DNA of 64,000 nt from Oscillospiraceae bacterium (GTDB lineage Bacteria; Bacillota; Clostridia; Oscillospirales; Oscillospiraceae): NCBI GenBank assembly GCA_902801295.1, contig CADCHN010000012.1, forward strand, positions 1-64,000, written 5' to 3'. The notes beneath the pieces were generated by a model. That model was not told the origin of the DNA. It did no database searches and saw nothing but the letters and a program-made list of their open reading frames with translations. Each line of letters begins with the position of its first letter. The first letter of the stretch is position 1. The position numbers and the translations under genes were made by a program. Of the stretch, positions 51,865 through 64,000 are shown one piece after another.

Positions 51865-54435
51865 TTAAAATGTTTTTTTCAAGGTCAAAACATTCCGGCC
51901 GTCCCGGTATTCATAGGTCACGTCGTCCATGAGCTTCTTGGTCATGAAGATGCCGAGGCCGCCGATTTCACGCTCCTCAGCGGAAAGCGCCACATCCGGG
52001 TCTGCCTTTTTCAGCGGGTCATAGGGTGTTCCGCTGTCGATGAAGGTGATCGTCACCGACGCAGGGTCTTCGGCGCGCGCCACGCGAACCGTCGCCTCGC
52101 CCTTGCCCGGCGCATAGGCGTAGCTGGCGATGTTGACGAAGATCTCCTCCACCGCCACGCCGATCTGCATCTGCGCTTTCGGCGGGCATTCGGCCGCCTC
52201 CAGGCGCTCCTCGACGAAGGCCTGCACCCGGGGCAGGTTTTCCTCTGTCGCTTCCAGGGTCAGCTCATCGGAGGGCATCCGGCCTTTATACTCCATGCAC
52301 AGCATCGTCAGATCGTCGAACTGCTCCGCGCCGGCGACAAATTGATCGACCGCGCCGCGGACCTGCTCCAGGATCTCTTTGGGAGTAGCATCGGGTGCCT
52401 CATTCAGCGCCGCGACCATGCGCTCCGTGCCGAAGAGCGTGTTCGACGCATCCGTTGCCTCGGGCACGCCGTCCGTATAGACAAACAGCTTGGTGCCGGG
52501 TTTCAGATGCCATTCATACTCTTTGTATGTCACGCCGTCCACCGCGCCGATGACCAGCCCGTGCTTGTCTTTGATCAGTTCAAAGCCGCCGTCCGGACGC
52601 TTCAGCACCGGATACTCATGGCCGGCGTTGGCCGCGGTCAGCTTGCCGGTGGAGATTTCCAGAATGCCCACCCAGACGGTCACAAACATCTCCTCCTGGT
52701 TGTTGGAGCAGATCGCCTGATTGGTTTTCGTCAGAATCTCCGCGGGAGAGCCGCCCAGCATGGCAACGCTCTGCAGAATGATCTTGGAGGCCATCATAAA
52801 CAGCGCCGAGGGCACGCCCTTGCCGGAGACATCCGCCATCACCATGCACAGGTGATCGTCGTCTACCAGGAAGAAATCGTAAAAGTCGCCGCCCACTTCC
52901 TTGGCCGGGTCCATATTGGCGTAGATGTCAATCTCCGGCCGTCCCGGGAAGGGCGGGAAGATATGCGGCATCATGGCGGCCTGGATCCTGGTGGCAAGCG
53001 ACAGCTCGGTGTTGATCCGTTCCTTCTCCGCCGTGATCTGCGTCAGCTGAGAGATGTAGGTTTTCGCCTTTTTGGTAAGCTCATCAAAGGCCTCGGCCAG
53101 CAGCTCGATTTCGTCGTTGGTGCGGTAGCTGTCCTTCATCGTAAATGGCTCGTTGGTGAGGCTGCTTTTGGTGATATCCCGCGTCATCTCTTCGATCGGA
53201 CGCACCATTTTCCGGACGGCGATCAGCGCAGAGACAACGCTGAGCAGAAAGACAGCGGCAATCACGGCGATCGCCGTCAGATAGGTCTTTGCCGAATCGG
53301 ATTTAAACTGTGCGCTCGCTTCTCCGTTGATTTTGTCATATTCGGCCAACAGCAGCTTTTCCGGCTGCTCGGTCAGTTCCTTTTCCACCGCCGTCACGAC
53401 GGCCCAGCCGACCGTGGGCATCGGCGCGCCGACCACATAATAGTCTTTGCCTTCGAGCGTGATCAAGCGGAGGCCGGTCTGCTCCAAAAGCGCCTGCTCC
53501 ACGAAGTCCGTCAGTTCGGGAATGCCGAGTTCTGACAGGCTTCGGGACCCGCCCTCTTTCGAATAGGGGAACAGTCCGCTCACATCCGAGGAAAGAATGA
53601 TCTGTCCCTTTTCATTGATAATCAGAACAGAACCGGCCTCCCGGGACGCGGCGTCGAGGACATTGTCTACACTTTCCAGCACGATATCAATGCCGACAAC
53701 ACCGGCAAGTTCCCCCTTAACTATCACCGGCGCCGAGCAGGTGACCAGAAGCTTCCCGCTGAAGCTGTCCGCCTCGATGCCGGTGAAATACACCCCGCCG
53801 GTTTCCGCCGCACCCCGGTACCAGGGCCGCTCGCGCACAGGGAACGGGATAGGCGTTCCGTTTTCATCCAGCTTGATCGCCGGCTTTTCGTCCACGCACA
53901 GATCTGTCCCGTCGGCAAGCCCGATATAGCATCCGTCGATTTTATCCGAGTTGCGCAGCATGGCGATCATGGGGGTGCTCATGTGCGCAACAACGCCGAG
54001 ATCCTTCGACTGCGTGTAGTCCACGCCTTCCTCACAGAGCACCATCGCCGACGGCACGCCGTCCATGGCCGGGTCCGGCAGACTGAAGGCCGCGGGTTCC
54101 ATGCTGTCCCGGTTTTCAAACAGTCCCTCTGCCATGGTCTGCAGCATCAGCGTGTTGTTGATGACCTCGGCAAAGTCGGCATCAGCCGTGCTGGCCTCCA
54201 GCGCGGCGGCGCGGATCATCGAGCCGCTCAGCATCTGGTGCATGGTCTCCTCGGAGGCCTGCGAGATGGCCTGCTGCTGCATGATCCGTGTCTCGTTGAC
54301 GATGTTGGCGAGCATTCGGTTCTGGTAGACGGTCACGCCTGCGAATACCGCGATCACCAGCACCAGGATAGACAGCACAAGCCCAATCGCTCTGCGCTGC
54401 AGTCCGCCGAATGTAATTCCCAGTAATTTTTTCAC
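51865..54435 (-). CDS. SpoIIE-type phosphatase fused to sensor and anti-sigma-like ATPase
   Basis: 856 residues from a GTG at 54435 with GGAGGAA upstream. Order: membrane helix (about 15-35), Cache-like extracellular sensor (about 40-360), second helix (about 385-405), HAMP, coiled linker, PP2C/SpoIIE phosphatase (about 485-715). The phosphatase has 'EVGGDFYDFFLVDDDHLCMV', 'ADVSGKGVPSALFMM' and 'YTDGVPEATD'. A C-terminal RsbW-like ATPase follows (N-box 'GVAVEEIFVNIASYAY', G1 'FIDSGTPYDPL', G2 'GGLGIFMTKKL'). It should dephosphorylate STAS partners (55769-56400) after an outside signal, while its own ATPase domain may rephosphorylate them or bind a partner. Confidence 0.9.
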   Translation of the reverse strand: MKKLLGITFGGLQRRAIGLVLSILVLVIAVFAGVTVYQNRMLANIVNETRIMQQQAISQASEETMHQMLSGSMIRAAALEASTADADFAEVINNTLMLQTMAEGLFENRDSMEPAAFSLPDPAMDGVPSAMVLCEEGVDYTQSKDLGVVAHMSTPMIAMLRNSDKIDGCYIGLADGTDLCVDEKPAIKLDENGTPIPFPVRERPWYRGAAETGGVYFTGIEADSFSGKLLVTCSAPVIVKGELAGVVGIDIVLESVDNVLDAASREAGSVLIINEKGQIILSSDVSGLFPYSKEGGSRSLSELGIPELTDFVEQALLEQTGLRLITLEGKDYYVVGAPMPTVGWAVVTAVEKELTEQPEKLLLAEYDKINGEASAQFKSDSAKTYLTAIAVIAAVFLLSVVSALIAVRKMVRPIEEMTRDITKSSLTNEPFTMKDSYRTNDEIELLAEAFDELTKKAKTYISQLTQITAEKERINTELSLATRIQAAMMPHIFPPFPGRPEIDIYANMDPAKEVGGDFYDFFLVDDDHLCMVMADVSGKGVPSALFMMASKIILQSVAMLGGSPAEILTKTNQAICSNNQEEMFVTVWVGILEISTGKLTAANAGHEYPVLKRPDGGFELIKDKHGLVIGAVDGVTYKEYEWHLKPGTKLFVYTDGVPEATDASNTLFGTERMVAALNEAPDATPKEILEQVRGAVDQFVAGAEQFDDLTMLCMEYKGRMPSDELTLEATEENLPRVQAFVEERLEAAECPPKAQMQIGVAVEEIFVNIASYAYAPGKGEATVRVARAEDPASVTITFIDSGTPYDPLKKADPDVALSAEEREIGGLGIFMTKKLMDDVTYEYRDGRNVLTLKKTF

Positions 54436-54482
54436 TTCTGTTCCTCCGCTGTGTCCCGGGTCAATCAAAAATGCCGCCAGCT

Positions 54483-54512
54483 CCCTTGGGAAAGCTCAAG
54501 TTTTCCCAAGGG
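54483..54512 (-). terminator. Hairpin between cystatin-like and SpoIIE-like genes
   Basis: CCCTTGGGAAA and TTTCCCAAGGG form an 11-bp stem. A T5 run lies some 12 nt further on, so termination is only partial or doubtful. Confidence 0.5.
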
Positions 54513-54524
54513 CGGCCGTTTGCA

Positions 54525-55139
54525 TCAGGCCTCGGCAGGCTCGGACAGCGCCGCGATATCCAGCGGCACAGTTTTCAGGACTTCCGTCTTTCCCTCAAGA
54601 TTCTCGTAAACGAAAGTCAGCGTCCAGCCCTTGCAGAGCACACAGTGCTTGGTGCCGGAGACGACCTGGGACGCCAGGTGCAGCACCGCGCCCTCGGTCT
54701 CCGCGCTGCTCTCCCGATCCACCGTCCAGCCGCCGAGGCTCTGACCGTCGGGCGCGGCCGCGTTTTCAACAACGCCGCTCTCCGCGATCTGCCCCAGATC
54801 CAGCGTGACAATGTTGCGGATCTCCGCCTCGCCCTGGAGGTTTTCATAGACGGTCACGACGGCATAGTAGGGCTGCGCGTCGGGATAGACCACCGCCGCT
54901 TCGCACAGGAAGCTGTAGTTGGTGCCGGAGACGAGCTGCGTGCCCAGCAGGGCGACCGTCTGGTAGCTCACGCCGACGAGGCCGTCGAGCGCCTTGTCAA
55001 ACGCGGCCTGCGCCTCGTCGGTAACAGCGCCGTCTTCCGACAGCGTCCAGCCGCCCACCTTCTTCTCCTGCTGTTTCCCGCAGGCGCCCAGCGTCAGCAG
55101 CAGGGCTAACAGCAGCGCAATTGCAATGATTTTTTTCAT
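54525..55139 (-). CDS. Lipoprotein with two cystatin-like domains
   Basis: 204 residues. The lipobox signal ('LLTLGACGKQQ') anchors it to the membrane outer face. The rest is two similar units of about 85 residues (about 28-115 and 118-200). Each starts with Gly-Gly-Trp-Thr ('VGGWTLSED', 'LGGWTVDRE') and carries a Gln-x-Val-x-Gly loop ('LLGTQLVSGTNYSFLCEA', 'LASQVVSGTKHCVLCKG'), then 'AVVTVYENLQGEAEI' / 'LTFVYENLEGKTEV'. GG at the N-terminus plus QxVxG are the contact sites of cystatin inhibitors of papain-like proteases. It lies in the same strand cluster as the C39 exporter. Confidence 0.75.
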   Translation of the reverse strand: MKKIIAIALLLALLLTLGACGKQQEKKVGGWTLSEDGAVTDEAQAAFDKALDGLVGVSYQTVALLGTQLVSGTNYSFLCEAAVVYPDAQPYYAVVTVYENLQGEAEIRNIVTLDLGQIAESGVVENAAAPDGQSLGGWTVDRESSAETEGAVLHLASQVVSGTKHCVLCKGWTLTFVYENLEGKTEVLKTVPLDIAALSEPAEA

Positions 55140-55179
55140 GGATATCCCTCCTGTCCGCGATGGAATCGCTCGCTGATTC

Positions 55180-55755
55180 TTATGCCAGCTTTTTGAAAAT
55201 GGTCATCTCCACGTCACGGCCGCGGATGCTGACCTTGACGTCGTCCGCCACATGGGCCACGACGGATTTTTCGAGTTCGTCCCAGGCCTCCGCAGCACCG
55301 GCCAGATTCTGCCGGACATACAGCTGCACCTGATGCTGATAGGAACGCATGGTCCACACCATCTCCGGGTTCATCCCGTCCTGGCTCACGTCCAGAACCA
55401 TCGGAATTCCCTCCACCGGCTCAAAGAAGGCGCGAATCTTCCCCATCAGGCCGCGGTGCGCTTCATTCTTCCCGCTGGTGGAGGCGGAGATCAGCTGCTC
55501 ACGCTTTTGAACATCCATTGCGGTCGTCGCATGAAGATGCAGCTCATACTGCTCGCCCTGGTTTTGGATCCAGAACTCGCCGTTCACATCGCCCGTGATG
55601 GCGCGCATCATGCTCGTCATTTCTTCCGCCAGGAGGCGAAGATGCAGCGCGCCTTTGGGAGACAGCTTCTGACGCTCGGCCACACGTTCGGCCTGGGCCA
55701 GCACGGCTTCCGTCCGGTCTTCGCGGCCGGCAAGAATAATCACATCACTTTTCAT
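55180..55755 (-). CDS. Degenerate anti-sigma ATPase-like protein
   Basis: 191 residues, soluble. Position and the segment 'LHLRLLAEEMTSMMRAI' suggest the GHKL ATPase fold used by RsbW-like anti-sigma factors, but the N-box Asn and the G1/G2 glycine motifs are not evident. It may bind STAS partners without kinase activity. It lies 13 bp after the STAS gene at 55769-56071 and 40 bp before the cystatin-like gene. Assignment is tentative. Confidence 0.5.
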   Translation of the reverse strand: MKSDVIILAGREDRTEAVLAQAERVAERQKLSPKGALHLRLLAEEMTSMMRAITGDVNGEFWIQNQGEQYELHLHATTAMDVQKREQLISASTSGKNEAHRGLMGKIRAFFEPVEGIPMVLDVSQDGMNPEMVWTMRSYQHQVQLYVRQNLAGAAEAWDELEKSVVAHVADDVKVSIRGRDVEMTIFKKLA

Positions 55756-55768
55756 CGTTTTTTCTCCC

Positions 55769-56071
55769 TTATTCGATGCTCAATATTGCCCGGAAGCCGG
55801 TCAGCTCGAGGACTTCCAGCACCATTTCGTTTGCGTTTACCACGGTGATTTTTCCTTTTCCCCGCAGCACCCGGTAGGTTGTCAGCAGAGCCCGGAGGCC
55901 GGCAGACGTGATATACGCCAGCTGCTTGAAATCAAAAACCAGATCGGTCACGCCCTCAAGCTCGCCGCGCAGGGCATCTTCCAGCTTCTGAGCGGTCACT
56001 GCGTCCAGACGGCCCTCCAGAGCGACCAACAGCATACTGTCTTTGCGGGTTTTCTTGATGTTCAGTTCCAT
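55769..56071 (-). CDS. STAS-domain anti-sigma-factor antagonist
   Basis: 100 residues, all one STAS domain. The phosphorylatable Ser region is 'DFKQLAYITSAGLRALLTTY'. 'LEGRLDAVTAQKLEDALR' is the usual opening. It is a likely substrate of the SpoIIE-like phosphatase at 51865-54435. It is 29 bp downstream of a second STAS gene. Confidence 0.92.
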   Translation of the reverse strand: MELNIKKTRKDSMLLVALEGRLDAVTAQKLEDALRGELEGVTDLVFDFKQLAYITSAGLRALLTTYRVLRGKGKITVVNANEMVLEVLELTGFRAILSIE

Positions 56072-56100
56072 GATTCAACCACTCCTTTTCTTCCTGCCGC

Positions 56101-56400
56101 TTACGCGATGGTCAGAATGTCCGAAAAGCCCGTGACATCGAAGATTTCCATGACCGTCTCGTTGACATGGGTGACGGTCATGGTTCCCTGTTTGCTCATG
56201 GCCTTCTGTGTTCCGAGCAGCACGCGCAGGCCAGCCGAAGAAATGTACTCCAGCTTTTCCAGATCCAGCGTCAGGCCGGTCACGTTCTCCAGGCTGTCCT
56301 TCAGTTCCTTTTCCAGAGCCGGCGCAGTCATGGTGTCCAGCCGTCCCTCCAGCTTAATCGTCAGTTCCCCGTTCTCGCCCGTCTTGTTGATGTTCAGCAT
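56101..56400 (-). CDS. STAS-domain anti-sigma-factor antagonist, second copy
   Basis: 99 residues. 'LEGRLDTMTAPALEKELK' and 'DLEKLEYISSAGLRVLLGTQ' (phospho-Ser) mark the fold. It is about half identical by eye to the neighbour at 55769-56071, so the pair probably arose by duplication. GGAGGG lies upstream of the ATG and a -10-like TATAAT at 56434-56439, without a good -35. Confidence 0.92.
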   Translation of the reverse strand: MLNINKTGENGELTIKLEGRLDTMTAPALEKELKDSLENVTGLTLDLEKLEYISSAGLRVLLGTQKAMSKQGTMTVTHVNETVMEIFDVTGFSDILTIA

Positions 56401-56874: not shown

Positions 56875-56919
56875 TAAAAAGCGCTCTTTTCCTGTTTTTC
56901 AGGAAAAGAGTGCTTTTTA
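56875..56919 (-). terminator. Terminator after the LysM mini-protein gene
   Basis: Minus strand GCACTCTTTTCCTG-AAAAA-CAGGAAAAGAGCGC followed by TTTTTATTTT, 34 nt past the stop at 56947. It splits the export/cargo genes from the regulatory genes. Confidence 0.92.
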
Positions 56920-56946: not shown

Positions 56947-57147
56947 TCAGAAGCGGATGATCAGCTTCTGGCCGGCCTTGAGCTCCAGCGGGTTGCGGAT
57001 ATTGTTCCAGCGGCAGAGCTGCTCGACCGTGCAGTGGAACTTCTTGGCGATCTCCTCCATGGTGTCGCCGGGACGAACGATATAGGGAACGACCGTGCCG
57101 CCGCTGACGGCGCTCAGCACTTCATCCTCCAGGGGAGCTGCGTTCAT
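56947..57147 (-). CDS. Double-glycine-leader LysM mini-protein
   Basis: 66 residues. The N-terminus 'MNAAPLEDEVLSAVSGG' is a double-glycine leader (Leu-x-x-x-x-Leu-x-x-Val-x-Gly-Gly) of the type cut by C39 peptidase domains. The mature 49 residues are one complete LysM domain: 'YIVRPGDTMEEIAKKFHCTV', 'QLCRWNNI', 'LKAGQKLIIRF'. LysM binds GlcNAc-containing glycans such as peptidoglycan. Two Cys could form a disulfide. There is no enzyme domain. AAGGAGGA precedes the ATG. It is 47 bp after the 713-residue lipoprotein and on the exporter's strand. Confidence 0.9.
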   Translation of the reverse strand: MNAAPLEDEVLSAVSGGTVVPYIVRPGDTMEEIAKKFHCTVEQLCRWNNIRNPLELKAGQKLIIRF

Positions 57148-57194
57148 GGATGATTCCTCCTTATTTTTTGTTTTCCGTTCTTGAGGGACGGCTG

Positions 57195-59336
57195 TCAGGT
57201 TTTTTCGCCGCCCGCGTCCGGGTCAAAGCCCTCGGTCACGCCGTAGATATCGACCTGATAAATGCTCTCTTCGCTGGGCTCATCCGTGTAGAACACGGTG
57301 CAGCTGCAGCCCTCGGCCAGCAGGCCGTAAGCAAGGCGGCAGATCTCCGGGTCGACGGTGACGGTCTGGCCGTTGGCCAGTTCGATCGTATAGCGGGCCG
57401 CTTCGATGTCGTGGACGATACCCGCCATGGACGCATAGACCGGTTCCGGTGTAGGCGTGGGCTCGGGCTCCGGCTCCGGGGTCGGCGTGGGCTCCGGGCC
57501 GTTATCCAGCGTAATGCTTCCGCCGCACTCGATCACGTCCAGGCTATGCCCGCCGTAACTGCCCTTGTAGTTCCAGATCACGTTCATGAAAAACTCGTTG
57601 CTGCCCGGCGCAAGATCCACGGTGAAGCTCCGGCTGCCGAAGCGGGTCGTCGTCATACCGCCCCGGTAATCGACGGTGGGCTGATTCATCTTCGCCGTCT
57701 GCCCGGTGATGCTGAGCACGATGGCGTTATCCAGCGCATTGAGTTGGATAGAGGCCGAGCGAATGCTGACGTCCATCGTTACTACGGCCTTATTCTCGTC
57801 GGTTTTGCGCGCCTCCCAGTCGCAGCAGAGCTCCAGTCCGGTCTCGGTGTTGGAGCTGAAGCCGCCCTTGCCGATCAGTTCACCGGCGGGTTCGGGGGTC
57901 GGTTCCGGAGTGGGTTCGGGGGTCGGTTCCGGAGTGGGTTCGGGGGTCGGTTCCGGAGTGGGTTCGGGGGTCGGTTCCGGAGTGGGTTCGGGTGTCGGTT
58001 CCGGAGTAGGTTCGGGAGCAGGTTCCGGAGTGGGTTCGGGCGTCGGTTCCGGAGTGGGTTCGGGAGCAGGTTCCGGAGTGGGTTCGGGCGTCGGTTCCGG
58101 AGTGGGTTTGGGAGCAGGTTCCGCCGTAGGGGCGGGTGTCGGCTCCGCCGTGGGGGCGGGCGTGGGCGTCGGCTTCGGCGCCGCCTGAACAGAGAGATAG
58201 GCCGTGTTCGTGCGTGCAGTCTGCCCGTCGTAGTTGAAGGTGCAGTAGGCGCCCCAGCGATCGGTGCCCTCGCTGAGCTTGCTGATGCTCAGCGTGGTGC
58301 TGTAGATGCCGCCGAGCTCAATACCGGGGAACTTGTTGGCAAAATTCTGCGGCGTATACTCTCCCCCGTCCGGCGAGACGAAAGTCCAGCTCAGGGAGGT
58401 GTAGATATTGGCATAAGCGACGAAATAGGCTGTGTCTCCGGTTTCGCGCTTTTCATTGGTCGGGTTTTTGGTGATATACAGAAACAGCGGCGCGGCATCA
58501 GCGGGCTCGGGAAGCGGCTCGCCCAGGGGGCGGGGCTGAGGCAGCGGATTCGACTTGTCCGGGGCCTTGTCGCCCGTGAAGACAGCATAGCTGTCCGCCA
58601 GGCAGCGGACGTCGGTCGCCTCCTCAATGCTGAACCAGCCGAAGTTGCTGCTGCTCTGCTCCATGCCCGCAAGGGCGGTCTGGCCGGCCGCATTGTAGGC
58701 TTCGGGCGAGATTTCGCGGCCCTCGAGGTCCATATATTCGACGCTCCGCTGTCCGTTCTGCACGGAAACCGTCTGGAACGCGAAGCTCTGATAGCTCACC
58801 GTCCGGTCGCGCAGCGTGACGGCGCACTTGGCCGTAATCGCATCGGTGTCAGAGAGCAGGATATTGTCGTAAAACAGATAGGACCAGCTGCCGGTCACGG
58901 GGTCGTGGAAGGTATCCGCGTTTTCAGCGAGAATATCGGGGAAGGACTCGCCCTCCTGCAGCGGGATCGCGCATTCCGTCAGCGTGTCTAGCTTCTCGCT
59001 GAGCTCCCACACGTTCAGCGTGGTGGAGCGGTCCGCCTGGTGCTGCGAGGCCGCAATCAGCTCCGGCTGTCCGTTATGGTCGAGGTCTGTCACCGCGTAG
59101 CGCCACTCGCGCTCTCCCTCCTGCCGGACGGCGGGCAGCATCTGAAACAGCGCCGCCATCTGGGGATCCTCCGGCTCGGGAGTCGGCGAGGGTGCAGGCG
59201 TCGGCATGCTGTCGGCGGGCTCTGTGGCAGGCGGCGCGGGCTCGTCAGTCTGCTGCGGGGCGCTCTGGCCGCAGGCCGCAAGCGAAAGGAGCATCGCAGC
59301 GGCCAGCAGGATGCAAAGGATTGATTTTCTGTTCAT
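57195..59336 (-). CDS. Large lipoprotein with Pro-Thr-Glu stalks
   Basis: 713 residues. Lipobox '[12 protein letters not shown]'. A first domain (about 60-390) opens with a VCBS-like '[20 protein letters not shown]'. It is joined by a long [16 protein letters not shown] stalk (about 393-480) to a second beta domain (about 482-625; '[20 protein letters not shown]'). A shorter stalk leads to a small domain of about 70 residues ('[20 protein letters not shown]'). It is probably an outer-face sensor or scaffold spanning the wall. It sits between the two double-glycine mini-proteins, so a role in their display or immunity is possible. Confidence 0.8.
57890..58130 (-). repeat. 24-bp-type repeats coding PEPTPEPT stalk
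   Basis: About ten imperfect copies of a GC-rich 24-bp unit (plus strand GGTTCCGGAGTGGGTTCGGG...). They code the Pro-Glu-Pro-Thr stalk. Confidence 0.88.
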
Positions 59337-59460: not shown

Positions 59461-59784
59461 TCACAGCAGCATATTGTTGACCAGATTCTGGATGGTGTCG
59501 TAATCGTAACCGGCCTTGGCCAGAGCAATCTTGCGGGCATCGCCGTTGCCGTACTTGCCGTCGATCACGTCCTTGGCGACCTTCTCATACTTGAGCAGGT
59601 CGTTGACCAGGCCCTGCACGACCTTCGGATCAAAGCCGGCCTTGCGCAGCGCAGCAAAGCGGGCCTCGCCGTTGCCGTAGTCGCCGTTGATGCAGGCATA
59701 AGCCGCCTTCAGGTTGGCCGTCATACCGCCGGAAACGTTCTCCAGGACCTCGTCGGTCAGCTTTTCCAGTTTTTCAATTGCCAT
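59461..59784 (-). CDS. Double-glycine-leader protein with two CW_7 repeats
   Basis: 107 residues. Leader 'MAIEKLEKLTDEVLENVSGG' ends in the Gly-Gly site for a C39 peptidase. The mature 87 residues are two CW_7 cell-wall-binding repeats, as in the Cpl-7 phage lysozyme: 'INGDYGNGEARFAALRKAGF' with 'VVQGLVNDLL', and 'VIDGKYGNGDARKIALAKAG' with 'IQNLVNNMLL'. CW_7 repeats bind the muropeptide. No catalytic domain is attached. Start has AAGGAAG. It lies 57 bp downstream of the NHLM-type ABC transporter, its likely exporter. Confidence 0.92.
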   Translation of the reverse strand: MAIEKLEKLTDEVLENVSGGMTANLKAAYACINGDYGNGEARFAALRKAGFDPKVVQGLVNDLLKYEKVAKDVIDGKYGNGDARKIALAKAGYDYDTIQNLVNNMLL

Positions 59785-59841: not shown

Positions 59842-62043
59842 TCATACCATGCTTGTCTCCGCCGTATCGAGCCGCTGCTTGGAAACGAGCTCCGCGAACA
59901 GGCCGTTTTTCGCGATCAGCTCATCGTAGCTGCCTTCCTCGGCGATGTGCCCCTTGTCCAGCACCAGAATCCGGTCGCAATGGCGGATGGTACTCAGGCG
60001 GTGGGCGATGACGATACGGGTGCATTTCAGCGCGTCCAGCGCCTCGGAGACCTGCTTTTGCGTTTTGTTGTCCAAAGCGGAGGTCGCCTCGTCGAACATC
60101 AGGATCTTCGGCTTGGGCGCCACGGCCCGGGCGATCATCAACCGCTGCTTCTGCCCGCCGGAGATGCCGCCCTGTCCTTCGGAGATCAGGGTCTGCATGC
60201 CCATGGGCATGGCGCGGATATCGTCCGCAATGCCGGCGATCTCGGCCGCCTGCCAGGCGTCCTCCAGCGACAGCTGGGGCGCGGAAATCACGATGTTTGA
60301 GTAGATATCGCCCTGAAACAGGCTTCCGCTCTGCATCACGGCGCCGATCCTGCGCCGCAGCGAGCGCAGATCGAGCTTCGCCATGTCTCTGCCGTCGTAG
60401 TAGATGGCGCCCTTCTGCGGTTTCTCAAAGCCCAGCAGCAGGCGCATGAGCGTACTTTTGCCGCAGCCCGTACGGCCGACGATGGCCACGTATTCGCCCG
60501 CCCGGATCTTGAGATTCAGGCCGTCCGCCACCCAGGGCAGATCCTCCCCGTAGCGGAAAGACACGTTGGACAGCTCGATGCCGCCGGACAGGCGGGTGAC
60601 CATGGCCTTCTGCTCGGTGGATTCCGGCTCCGCCTTCAGGATCGGCTCCGCCAGATCCAGAATTGGACGGATCTGAGCCGCAGTGAGCGCTACGCCGCTG
60701 AGTGCGGAAAAGGCGCCCATCACCATGCCGTAGGCGGCGTTGAAAGCCAGATACTCCGAGGGCGACACATGGGTTTTTACCGCCAGGTAGTAGAGCAGGA
60801 TCGTCCCCGCCAGGGATACCGCTGTGGTGATCACGCCGCTGATTTTCAGAAACAGCGGCGGATTATAGCTCAGCTCCGCCTCCTCGCTGTATTCCTCCGC
60901 CCAGAGGGCAAAGGCCCGCTTTTCCGCGCCGGCGAGCTTGATCTTCTGGATGCCGTTGATGAGCCCATAGCTCAGTCCGGCGGTTTTCGCCTCGCGCTGC
61001 ATAAGCTGCCGGCTGATCTCCCGCTGCTTGAACACCGTGGCCAGACTGATGCCGACCGTGACCAGGATAATCGCCAGTGCAGGCAGGACGAGAGCCGGCG
61101 CATAGTGGAAGATCTCCGTGACATACAGGAGGGACATCAGCGAGCTCAGGCCAAGGGAGGTCACGCCGCCGAGCAGCAGAGAGCAGAGCTGATTGACCGC
61201 GCCGAAGCGGCTGGACAACTCACCCGAGGAATACTGCCGGAAAAAGTCGGCGGGAAGATTGATAACGCGCATCATGACCGCCGCCTCGACGGACAGTGAG
61301 CTTTTGACCCGCACGCGGTTCATGGTCAGCTCCCGCACGGCGGAAATCAGCTGGCCGGACAGGATGGTGCAGACCAGAAACACCGCGGCGCCCACCAGCA
61401 TGGCAAGGCTCCCGCTCTCCAGCACCGTGCCCGTCAGGGCGCGGGTGATGCGGGGCATCAGCATGCCGACCAGCGTGGCCAGCAGCGTCAGCCCGAAAAA
61501 TACCAGCCGGTCGCCTGTGCTCAGGCAGTCCTTCAGATAGAGCAGAAGATCCGTGATCCCCAGCTTTTTCAGCGGCAGAGGGCGATAAAAACAAATCGCG
61601 TCCTCGTCGAAGACCGCCGCCGTGCGCCGATTCAGGCGGCGCTGCTCGCCGCTTTCGGGGTCGAGGAAGCGGTAGCCGGAAAAGGAACCGGGCAGCAGCG
61701 CCACAGGCAGGCGCTTTTCCCCGTAAAATCCAAGCATCGGCCCGAAGGCGTCGCGGTACCAGCCCGCCTCCAGGCGGACGTTGCGCCGCATGATCCCGTG
61801 GGGACGCAGGCAGTATTCCAGCTGCTCATCCGCCTCCTCCAGATGCTCGGGGATCTCCGCGGGCTTGATGTGATAATATTTCAGGATCTCATCCAGGGCG
61901 GCTTTGGTTACAATACGCTCGTCGTTCAGATTGCCCGCGCCGTTTTTTCCCAGCACCACGGAGGCCATGCGGAAAATGGAGTCTTCAAAAACCTCCTGAT
62001 CCTTCTGCTTGCGCAGCCGGATCTGGTCGTCAAACCAACTCAT
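59842..62043 (-). CDS. NHLM-type peptide-export ABC transporter without peptidase
   Basis: 733 residues. Opening 'MSWFDDQIRLRKQKDQEVFE' and a long N-terminal region (about 1-170), then six membrane helices and an ATPase: Walker A 'VGRTGCGKSTLMRL', signature 'GISGGQKQRLMIARA', Walker B 'ILMFDEATSALD'. This fits the second transporter of the NHLM (nitrile hydratase leader microcin) export pair. It is 12 bp downstream of the peptidase-containing transporter; together they likely export the double-glycine mini-proteins. Confidence 0.93.
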   Translation of the reverse strand: MSWFDDQIRLRKQKDQEVFEDSIFRMASVVLGKNGAGNLNDERIVTKAALDEILKYYHIKPAEIPEHLEEADEQLEYCLRPHGIMRRNVRLEAGWYRDAFGPMLGFYGEKRLPVALLPGSFSGYRFLDPESGEQRRLNRRTAAVFDEDAICFYRPLPLKKLGITDLLLYLKDCLSTGDRLVFFGLTLLATLVGMLMPRITRALTGTVLESGSLAMLVGAAVFLVCTILSGQLISAVRELTMNRVRVKSSLSVEAAVMMRVINLPADFFRQYSSGELSSRFGAVNQLCSLLLGGVTSLGLSSLMSLLYVTEIFHYAPALVLPALAIILVTVGISLATVFKQREISRQLMQREAKTAGLSYGLINGIQKIKLAGAEKRAFALWAEEYSEEAELSYNPPLFLKISGVITTAVSLAGTILLYYLAVKTHVSPSEYLAFNAAYGMVMGAFSALSGVALTAAQIRPILDLAEPILKAEPESTEQKAMVTRLSGGIELSNVSFRYGEDLPWVADGLNLKIRAGEYVAIVGRTGCGKSTLMRLLLGFEKPQKGAIYYDGRDMAKLDLRSLRRRIGAVMQSGSLFQGDIYSNIVISAPQLSLEDAWQAAEIAGIADDIRAMPMGMQTLISEGQGGISGGQKQRLMIARAVAPKPKILMFDEATSALDNKTQKQVSEALDALKCTRIVIAHRLSTIRHCDRILVLDKGHIAEEGSYDELIAKNGLFAELVSKQRLDTAETSMV

Positions 62044-62055
62044 TCTCTCCCCTCC

Positions 62056-64000
62056 TCAGTCGCTGGCGATCAGCTCGGCGTACAGGCCGCCGCGGGCATA
62101 GAGCTCGTCATGGGTGCCGCGCTCCGCCACCCGGCCCTTGTCCAGCACCACGATCTCGTCGCAGTCGCGGATCGTAGACAGGCGGTGGGCAATGACGATG
62201 CAGGTGATGCCGCGCTCCTGGATCGCCCGAACGAGCTCATACTCGGTCAGCGCGTCCAGCGCGGAGGTCGCCTCGTCGAGAATGATCAGCGTCGGGTCCT
62301 GAGCCAGCACCCGCGCGATCTCCAGGCGCTGCCGCTGGCCGCCGGAGAGATCCCGGCCGCCCTCGGTAAGCCGGCCGGAAAAACCGCCTGTGCGCGCCAT
62401 AATATCGTCATAGATCTGGGCGTCGCGCGCAGCGAGGATCATCTCGAAGTCCTCGATGGAGCTGTCCCACATCTTGATGTTGTCGGCAATGCTGCCCTCA
62501 AAGAGCACGATGTCCTGATCCACCACGGCCACCGAGCCGGTGAACACATCCCGGTCAATGGCGGAAATGGGCTTGCCGTCAAAAAGGATCTCGCCGCTCC
62601 AGGGCTGATAGAGCCCGGAGATCAGCTTGGAAAGCGTACTTTTGCCGCAGCCGGAGCTGCCGACGATGGCCACCCGGCTGCCCGGCTTGACATGCAGGGA
62701 GACGTGTTGGATGAGCGGCTGGCCGAGGCGGGAGTAGCCGAAGCAAACGTCCTTGAGCTCCAGCTCGCCGGAGAGCTTGGCGTAATCCGTCTCATCGGAC
62801 AGCGGCGCGTCGGCTGCCGCCGGATCGTCGGGATAGGCCATGACGTCCTCCACGCGCTCCATCTCGGTGCGCATCTCCTGGATGGACTGGCCCGCCGAGA
62901 TCAGCTGCATGGCCGGCGCCGTAAAAGAGCTCAGAAAGCCCTGGAAGGTCAGGATCATACCGATGGAAAAGCGACCCTGCATGGTCAGATACACGCCCAG
63001 CACCAGCACCGCCGCTCCGGCGAGGGAATTGAGCAGCACCGGGATCATCCCCAGGTACTGGTTCAGCCGGGCAAAGCGGTTCTCCGCGCTGTTGACGGAG
63101 GCCTGATATCCCGCCCACTTCTGGAAAAAGCCGTTCTCCGCGCCGCTGGCCTTGATGGTTTCCACCATCTGGATCCCGGACACGGTGGTCGCGGCCAGCT
63201 TGCCGCTGTCGCGCATCTGGACGAGGGTGATATTGATCCGCTTGTTGGAAATGATGCGCGAGACGATCAGGTTCAGCAGCGTTGCCGCCAGACCCACGGC
63301 CGTCAGAAGCACGCTGTAGCGCAGCATGACCACCAGGTAGAAAACCAGCATGCCCGCATTCAGCAGCAGCGGCGCGAAGGTGTTGACGAGGGTGCCGGCA
63401 ATGGAGGCATTGGTGCCCATGCGCTGCAGCAGGTCGCCCGACAGCCGCTGCGAGAAAAACTCCATCGGCAGATGCAGCAGCTTCCACAGATAGGAGCTGC
63501 TGCCCACGAGGGCCATTTTCCCGCTGATTTTCAGCGAGTAGATCGCCTGGACCCAGGCCACGACGATCTGCGCCAGCGCCAGCAGCGCGAGGATGCCCAA
63601 GAACGGCAGCAGCAGCTCTTCATTTTCTCCGGTGAGCAGCCGGTCGATGAAAAAGCTGGCAAACACGGGATTCAGGATCCCGAAGAGGTAGCCGATCACC
63701 GTCGAGAGCATCACAAAGGCAACGACCGCCCCGGCGCCCACCAGACGCTTGCGGGCAAAGGCGAGCGTACTCTTGCGCCGGCCGCCGGGCTGAAAGGCGG
63801 GCCCGGGCGTAACCTGCAGGCAGATGCCGGTAAAAGAGCGGTCAAACTCCTCCAGGCTCACCCGCACTTCGCCCCGCGCGGGGTCGTTGAGGTAGGCGTA
63901 TCGGCCGCGAAAGCCGCGCAGCACGACAAAGTGGTTGAAATTCCAATGGATGATGCAGGGCAGCTGCATCTCCTCCCGCAGCGACGCCGGCTCGCAGCGG
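62056..64000 (-). CDS. NHLM-type peptidase-containing ABC transporter, cut by right edge
   Basis: The C-terminal 640 or so residues are visible; the reading frame is open to the edge ('ASLREEMQLPCIIHWNFNHF'). The end of the C39 peptidase domain is present with catalytic His ('NFNHFVVLRGF') and Asp ('YLNDPARGEV'); the catalytic Cys lies beyond the window. Then come six helices and an ATPase: Walker A 'VGSSGCGKSTLSKL', signature 'LSGGQRQRLEIARVLAQDPT', Walker B 'LIILDEATSALD'. It should cut double-glycine leaders and pump the mature peptides out. The ATG at 63969 is internal, not a start. Confidence 0.93.
   Translation of the reverse strand, partial: RCEPASLREEMQLPCIIHWNFNHFVVLRGFRGRYAYLNDPARGEVRVSLEEFDRSFTGICLQVTPGPAFQPGGRRKSTLAFARKRLVGAGAVVAFVMLSTVIGYLFGILNPVFASFFIDRLLTGENEELLLPFLGILALLALAQIVVAWVQAIYSLKISGKMALVGSSSYLWKLLHLPMEFFSQRLSGDLLQRMGTNASIAGTLVNTFAPLLLNAGMLVFYLVVMLRYSVLLTAVGLAATLLNLIVSRIISNKRINITLVQMRDSGKLAATTVSGIQMVETIKASGAENGFFQKWAGYQASVNSAENRFARLNQYLGMIPVLLNSLAGAAVLVLGVYLTMQGRFSIGMILTFQGFLSSFTAPAMQLISAGQSIQEMRTEMERVEDVMAYPDDPAAADAPLSDETDYAKLSGELELKDVCFGYSRLGQPLIQHVSLHVKPGSRVAIVGSSGCGKSTLSKLISGLYQPWSGEILFDGKPISAIDRDVFTGSVAVVDQDIVLFEGSIADNIKMWDSSIEDFEMILAARDAQIYDDIMARTGGFSGRLTEGGRDLSGGQRQRLEIARVLAQDPTLIILDEATSALDALTEYELVRAIQERGITCIVIAHRLSTIRDCDEIVVLDKGRVAERGTHDELYARGGLYAELIASD

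Follow-up and report, generated by a model that had tools for sequence, protein, structure and literature searches.

A double-glycine leader fused to a single LysM domain beside an NHLM-type exporter: a candidate wall-binding miniprotein from an Oscillospiraceae bacterium

The window analyzed here, a 64,000-nucleotide stretch of DNA from an Oscillospiraceae bacterium, contains on its minus strand (56947-57147) a genuine gene in which a double-glycine (GG) leader is fused to a single LysM domain. The gene lies close to those for an NHLM-type exporter and for a second GG-leader protein composed of CW_7 repeats. We propose that the LysM miniprotein, with the CW_7 protein, probably binds the peptidoglycan of the producing cell and coats or remodels its envelope, a reading in which we place moderate confidence.

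The LysM precursor gene and its leader

The gene and its signals occupy the following positions:

56947..57147, minus strand: GG-leader single-LysM precursor gene, 66 aa, ATG start
57097..57147, minus strand: double-glycine leader, 17 codons, MNAAPLEDEVLSAVSGG
56950..57096, minus strand: predicted mature LysM domain, 49 residues (stop codon 56947-56949)
57156..57162, minus strand: ribosome-binding site AAGGAGG
56884..56910, minus strand: intrinsic terminator behind the LysM gene, 11-pair stem and T run

The strong ribosome-binding site stands nine bases upstream of the ATG, and the stem-loop terminator follows just 3' of the stop codon; the gene is the last of its operon. The first-pass annotation had described a mature part of 49 residues with two cysteines, and this holds: it spans T18 to F66 (pI 9.2) and contains Cys39 and Cys45. 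The protein matches the Pfam LysM family (PF01476) at 59.7 bits over residues 22-64 (cut-off 20.9). AlphaFold models the precursor at a mean pLDDT of 77 (about 51-63 in the leader and 81-88 in the domain); the leader lacks regular structure and the domain has the strand-helix-helix-strand (E-H-H-E, beta-alpha-alpha-beta) order of LysM, so that profile score and modeled fold both place it in this family. LysM chains likewise dominate the top Foldseek matches in the PDB (E about 1e-3), including AtlA (2mkx), NlpC/P60 (4uz2/4uz3), and CtCBM50 (7r1l). Orthologs share 77-86% identity and keep the leader, and dN values of 0.08-0.17 against dS values of 0.36-0.53 indicate purifying selection.

The two cysteines vary: of the 34 distinct class members, both are present in 14, one in 2, and neither in 18. 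Because the pair is not conserved, a disulfide is uncertain and would be at most a trait of one sub-branch. All-or-none covariation of the cysteines, considered as a sign of such a bond, was ruled out by the single-cysteine proteins of two species (L064, L065).

The leader had also been said to resemble the core of the CW_7 leader, and the CW_7 protein at 59461-59784 does begin with the sequence quoted for it. Using a profile built solely from the CW_7 leaders of related loci, we scanned 657 open reading frames (ORFs) preceded by ribosome-binding sites in 116 kb of the genome; the LysM ORF ranked second (14.7 bits, E 9e-4), behind the CW_7 ORF alone, and 0 of 200,000 shuffled LysM N-termini reached its score. 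The match of the LysM N-terminus to CW_7 leaders exceeds chance. Within genomes, LysM leaders gave no signal of being nearer to the CW_7 leader of their own genome (permutation p 0.22).

When leaders of short proteins from related genomes were aligned, as the first-pass annotation had recommended, a common core emerged in 65 distinct leaders from the LysM classes and CW_7: positions -12 (L/M/I/V), -10 (D/E), -7 (L/M), -4 (V/I), and the GG at -2 and -1 are constrained, and the remaining positions vary. These are the constrained positions of the PCAT-substrate leader consensus as given in PMC12184118, and the LysM protein carries this core near its N-terminus. Across 25 aligned LysM members, the GG, Trp47, and Asn48 are invariant. 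Relatives were collected from public genomes by matching the LysM core alone, leaving the leader out of the pattern, and the relatives that could have overturned the annotation, those with a Sec signal or with no leader, did not appear among the congeneric loci: a double-glycine leader is present in 26 of 26 (L055-L080; ORFs of 62-68 aa) and a Sec signal in none, while the LysM matches without a leader are domains inside ordinary larger proteins. That the Gly-Gly is an N-terminal accident in a protein that stays cytoplasmic is therefore scarcely credible, given a leader conserved in 26/26 loci, a core kept in 65 leaders, a profile rank of 2/657, purifying selection, and the co-occurrence described below.

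The exporter operon and its surroundings

Five further genes make up the conserved neighborhood:

57195..59336, minus strand: Sec lipoprotein with a Pro/Thr/Glu stalk and a beta-sandwich domain, conserved neighbor
59461..59784, minus strand: GG-leader protein with two CW_7 repeats
59842..62043, minus strand: NHLM ABC2 exporter subunit without peptidase (TIGR03797)
62056..64000, minus strand: NHLM ABC1 exporter with C39 peptidase (TIGR03796), continuing beyond the window to contig position 64236
64248-64664 of the contig, outside the window: shortened HlyD-like gene, next beyond ABC1

The order HlyD-ABC1-ABC2-CW_7-lipoprotein-LysM is conserved in close relatives, and a gap of 47 bases separates the lipoprotein gene from the LysM gene; from spacing, strand, and conserved order we infer that the HlyD to LysM genes form one operon. 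ABC1 scores 923.8 bits against TIGR03796 (cut-off 853.3) and ABC2 724.5 bits against TIGR03797 (cut-off 709.4). The HlyD-like protein is shortened to 138 aa and reaches 27.0 bits against TIGR03794, below the cut-off of 156.2 and covering model positions 1-54 of 421 only; a cut-down HlyD would fit a cell with no outer membrane to cross. The one C39 peptidase found in the genome lies within ABC1 of this operon, and its catalytic motif (Gln/Cys/His/Asp) is preserved in all 25 distinct relatives, which gives the LysM protein the cognate C39 exporter expected of a PCAT substrate.

Across 61 congeneric genomes, mostly metagenome-assembled, ABC1 occurs in 36 overall, in 25 of the 26 that encode a class A LysM (the class of the window gene; Fisher p 1.3e-7), and in 27 of the 28 with CW_7 (p 1.2e-8), and class A LysM and CW_7 also co-occur (p 4.5e-9), although these p-values overstate independence because the genomes share descent and most are metagenome assemblies. 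Relatives that bear a name are assemblies from the ruminant gut, classified under Ruminococcaceae, Oscillospiraceae, or Clostridiales, and the genus is mostly found in that habitat. Matching leaders, a single C39 peptidase within the operon, its intact motif, and co-occurrence agree with the earlier proposal of a common exporter; that the LysM and CW_7 proteins probably share it is well supported, and cleavage and export of the LysM precursor by ABC1/ABC2 are strongly suggested.

The C-terminal beta-sandwich of the lipoprotein (residues about 485-614) is modeled at pLDDT 95. In BFVD it matches phage tail protein domains (best TM 0.88 by query, 26% identity), a Lactococcus phage AM8 tail protein among them; the PDB returned nothing convincing and PHROG no match. 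Another protein of the same genome, which has a membrane anchor and a Pro/Thr-rich stalk, carries a second copy of the domain (L006:4816-5547, C13). The lipoprotein could be an immunity protein or a receptor.

Just past the terminator, the region 51865-56400 encodes a protein that joins a SpoIIE-type phosphatase to an RsbW-like ATPase and a dCache sensor, along with two STAS anti-sigma antagonists and some small uncharacterized proteins; in other species, homologs are again found close to the exporter. Such recurrence of SpoIIE-type phosphatases, STAS proteins, and response regulators is what one might expect if the exported LysM were a signal or sensor ligand that captures muropeptides or cues the nearby SpoIIE/STAS/anti-sigma and response-regulator genes. 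We consider this quite improbable, as these regulators are common control genes that lie beyond the terminator and no receptor was recognized. At a contig end, near-identical ParA-like genes (L004:7981-9686 and L004:13309-14054), one of them followed by a ParB-like gene, flank an integrase-like ORF in what looks like a mobile element.

The cargo family and its range

Class A LysM proteins have 64-70 aa; further GG-leader LysM proteins form class B (81-91 aa) and class C (70-78 aa), often several per locus. Genome-wide counts of GG-leader genes are based on family searches. Other cargo includes GG-leader PepSY proteins, which score 37.7 and 44.4 bits (cut-off 24), a single SH3_3 match that falls short of its cut-off (23.3 bits against 27), and a beta-sandwich protein that shares its domain with the C-terminal region of the lipoprotein in the window. 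The PepSY genes adjoin the lipoprotein gene (L053:11375-11641, L074:7504-7767, L075:7522-7785). With LysM classes, CW_7, PepSY, a weak SH3, and a beta-sandwich, most of the recognizable cargo in this genus and a sister genus therefore appears to be normally extracytoplasmic domains that would be delivered without Sec.

Another GG-leader family, about 93-101 aa long and marked by a conserved DSWFV motif, is also encoded (L064:15917-16198, L065:15921-16202, L045:7621-7917, L069:16427-16732) and has no Pfam match; this family and proteins with weakly Nif11-like leaders are cargo without a wall-binding signature. The Nif11 matches are weak, below cut-off, and confined to other cargo, and the LysM protein was rejected as an NHLP/N11P precursor, with no match to TIGR03793, TIGR03798, or PF07862.

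Leader-bearing LysM cargo is limited, in the samples searched, to the genus and one sister genus (L123/L148, L151). A wide spread was rejected after searches of the family, order, and phylum, which outside these two genera returned only ordinary multi-domain LysM proteins. NHLM loci in other genera of the family have different cargo, for example zinc-ribbon-like peptides; at L195:10123-11087, L196:5385-6585, and L199:5859-6913, GG-leader peptides bearing zinc-ribbon-like CxxC pairs are arranged in tandem next to NHLM exporters.

The presence of several paralogs per genome and their diversification would also suit the main rival reading, a wall-targeting bacteriocin in which the miniproteins bind the walls of competitors and disturb wall growth and the lipoprotein confers immunity. 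The name of the exporter family refers to bacteriocin export, class II bacteriocins typically have double-glycine leaders, and a conserved lipoprotein adjoins the cargo. However, the mature parts consist of conserved domains of wall-binding type and include no lytic or pore-forming portion, the LysM gene is under purifying selection, and apart from the lipoprotein no dedicated immunity gene was recognized; we regard a bacteriocin as unlikely.

Proposed function and relation to known systems

For the favored role in the producer's envelope, cleavage, export, wall binding, and coating are predicted from sequence and context. The NHLM-type ABC1/ABC2 exporter would bind the 17-residue leader, the C39 peptidase of ABC1 would cut after Gly-Gly, and the 49-residue LysM would be released outside, fold there, and bind a GlcNAc-containing glycan, most likely the producer's peptidoglycan. 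In characterized proteins LysM recognizes peptidoglycan; chitin is bound as well, and the ligand could therefore be another glycan. A single LysM usually binds weakly, so that coating would require abundance or oligomers. The co-exported CW_7 protein should bind muropeptide, CW_7 repeats being known to bind GMDP of peptidoglycan (PMC5705596), and the Sec-exported lipoprotein, with its wall-spanning Pro/Thr/Glu stalk, would act beside both. Together, these proteins may stabilize the envelope, shield it from hydrolases, or compete with the autolysins of the cell. That the mature LysM is destined for the producer's own wall is suggested more weakly than its export; it is favored because LysM and CW_7 recognize peptidoglycan, both miniproteins lack a catalytic part, and the closest characterized case, the MAM protein discussed below, resides in its producer's envelope.

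MAM of the gut relative Faecalibacterium duncaniae likewise has a double-glycine leader and a neighboring PCAT gene, outnumbers every other protein in the envelope of that species, which it presumably coats, and is there too inferred to be cleaved and exported by PCAT (PMC12184118). It differs in being helical, without known domains, and proposed to form a hexameric lattice, whereas the present exporter is an NHLM ABC1/ABC2 pair and its cargo a family of domains known to bind the wall; the MMMPAN leader motif of the MAM family, taken from the same source, is absent from the LysM translation. The NHLP/N11P export system (TIGR03794/03796/03797; Haft et al. 2010, PMC2887384) has the same ABC1 and ABC2 equivalogs, both above curated cut-offs here, but the LysM cargo lacks a nitrile-hydratase-like or Nif11 leader, HlyD has 138 aa, and, unlike in NHLP/N11P, no modifying enzyme was recognized near the LysM locus. 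EbfG1-4 of Synechococcus elongatus are small double-glycine proteins that need the C39 peptidase transporter PteB and serve in biofilm formation rather than killing (PMC4997328); they are cyanobacterial, and the portion of the source covered here mentions no LysM or CW_7 domain. Cpl-7 also has CW_7 repeats, as does the co-exported partner with its two, but there they are attached to a muramidase (PMC5705596) and here they stand alone.

Members of this genus might even employ the exporter, as a dedicated one, to assemble stand-alone LysM and CW_7 proteins into a wall-bound shield that blocks the sites recognized by lysozyme, endolysins of phages, or rival hydrolases, a specific outcome that we advance only tentatively, as doubtful. 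Its attraction is that it would be a bacterial counterpart of the fungal single-LysM effectors that protect hyphae, such as Mg1LysM, a secreted single LysM domain that shields its own cell wall from hydrolases (PMC7337405); Mg1LysM differs in being eukaryotic and chitin-binding, and neither common descent nor polymerization is indicated for the bacterial LysM.

In the full-text literature covered, which includes few subscription papers, we found no report of LysM or CW_7 proteins with double-glycine leaders. LysM, CW_7, double-glycine leaders, and NHLM exporters are each known, and our search suggests that their combination is unreported. Peptidase-containing exporters have been studied mostly for bacteriocins and signals; the present locus suggests that one has been turned to coating or remodeling the cell wall by means of bare wall-binding domains, bypassing Sec. 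If so, this exporter class would have a wider role, with a second case beside MAM of an exporter-built envelope, and gene-mining tools that call NHLM loci bacteriocin clusters may misname such loci. The locus also provides LysM and CW_7 binders that are natural and very small, as well as a direct test of whether bacteria, like fungi, shield their walls with LysM proteins.
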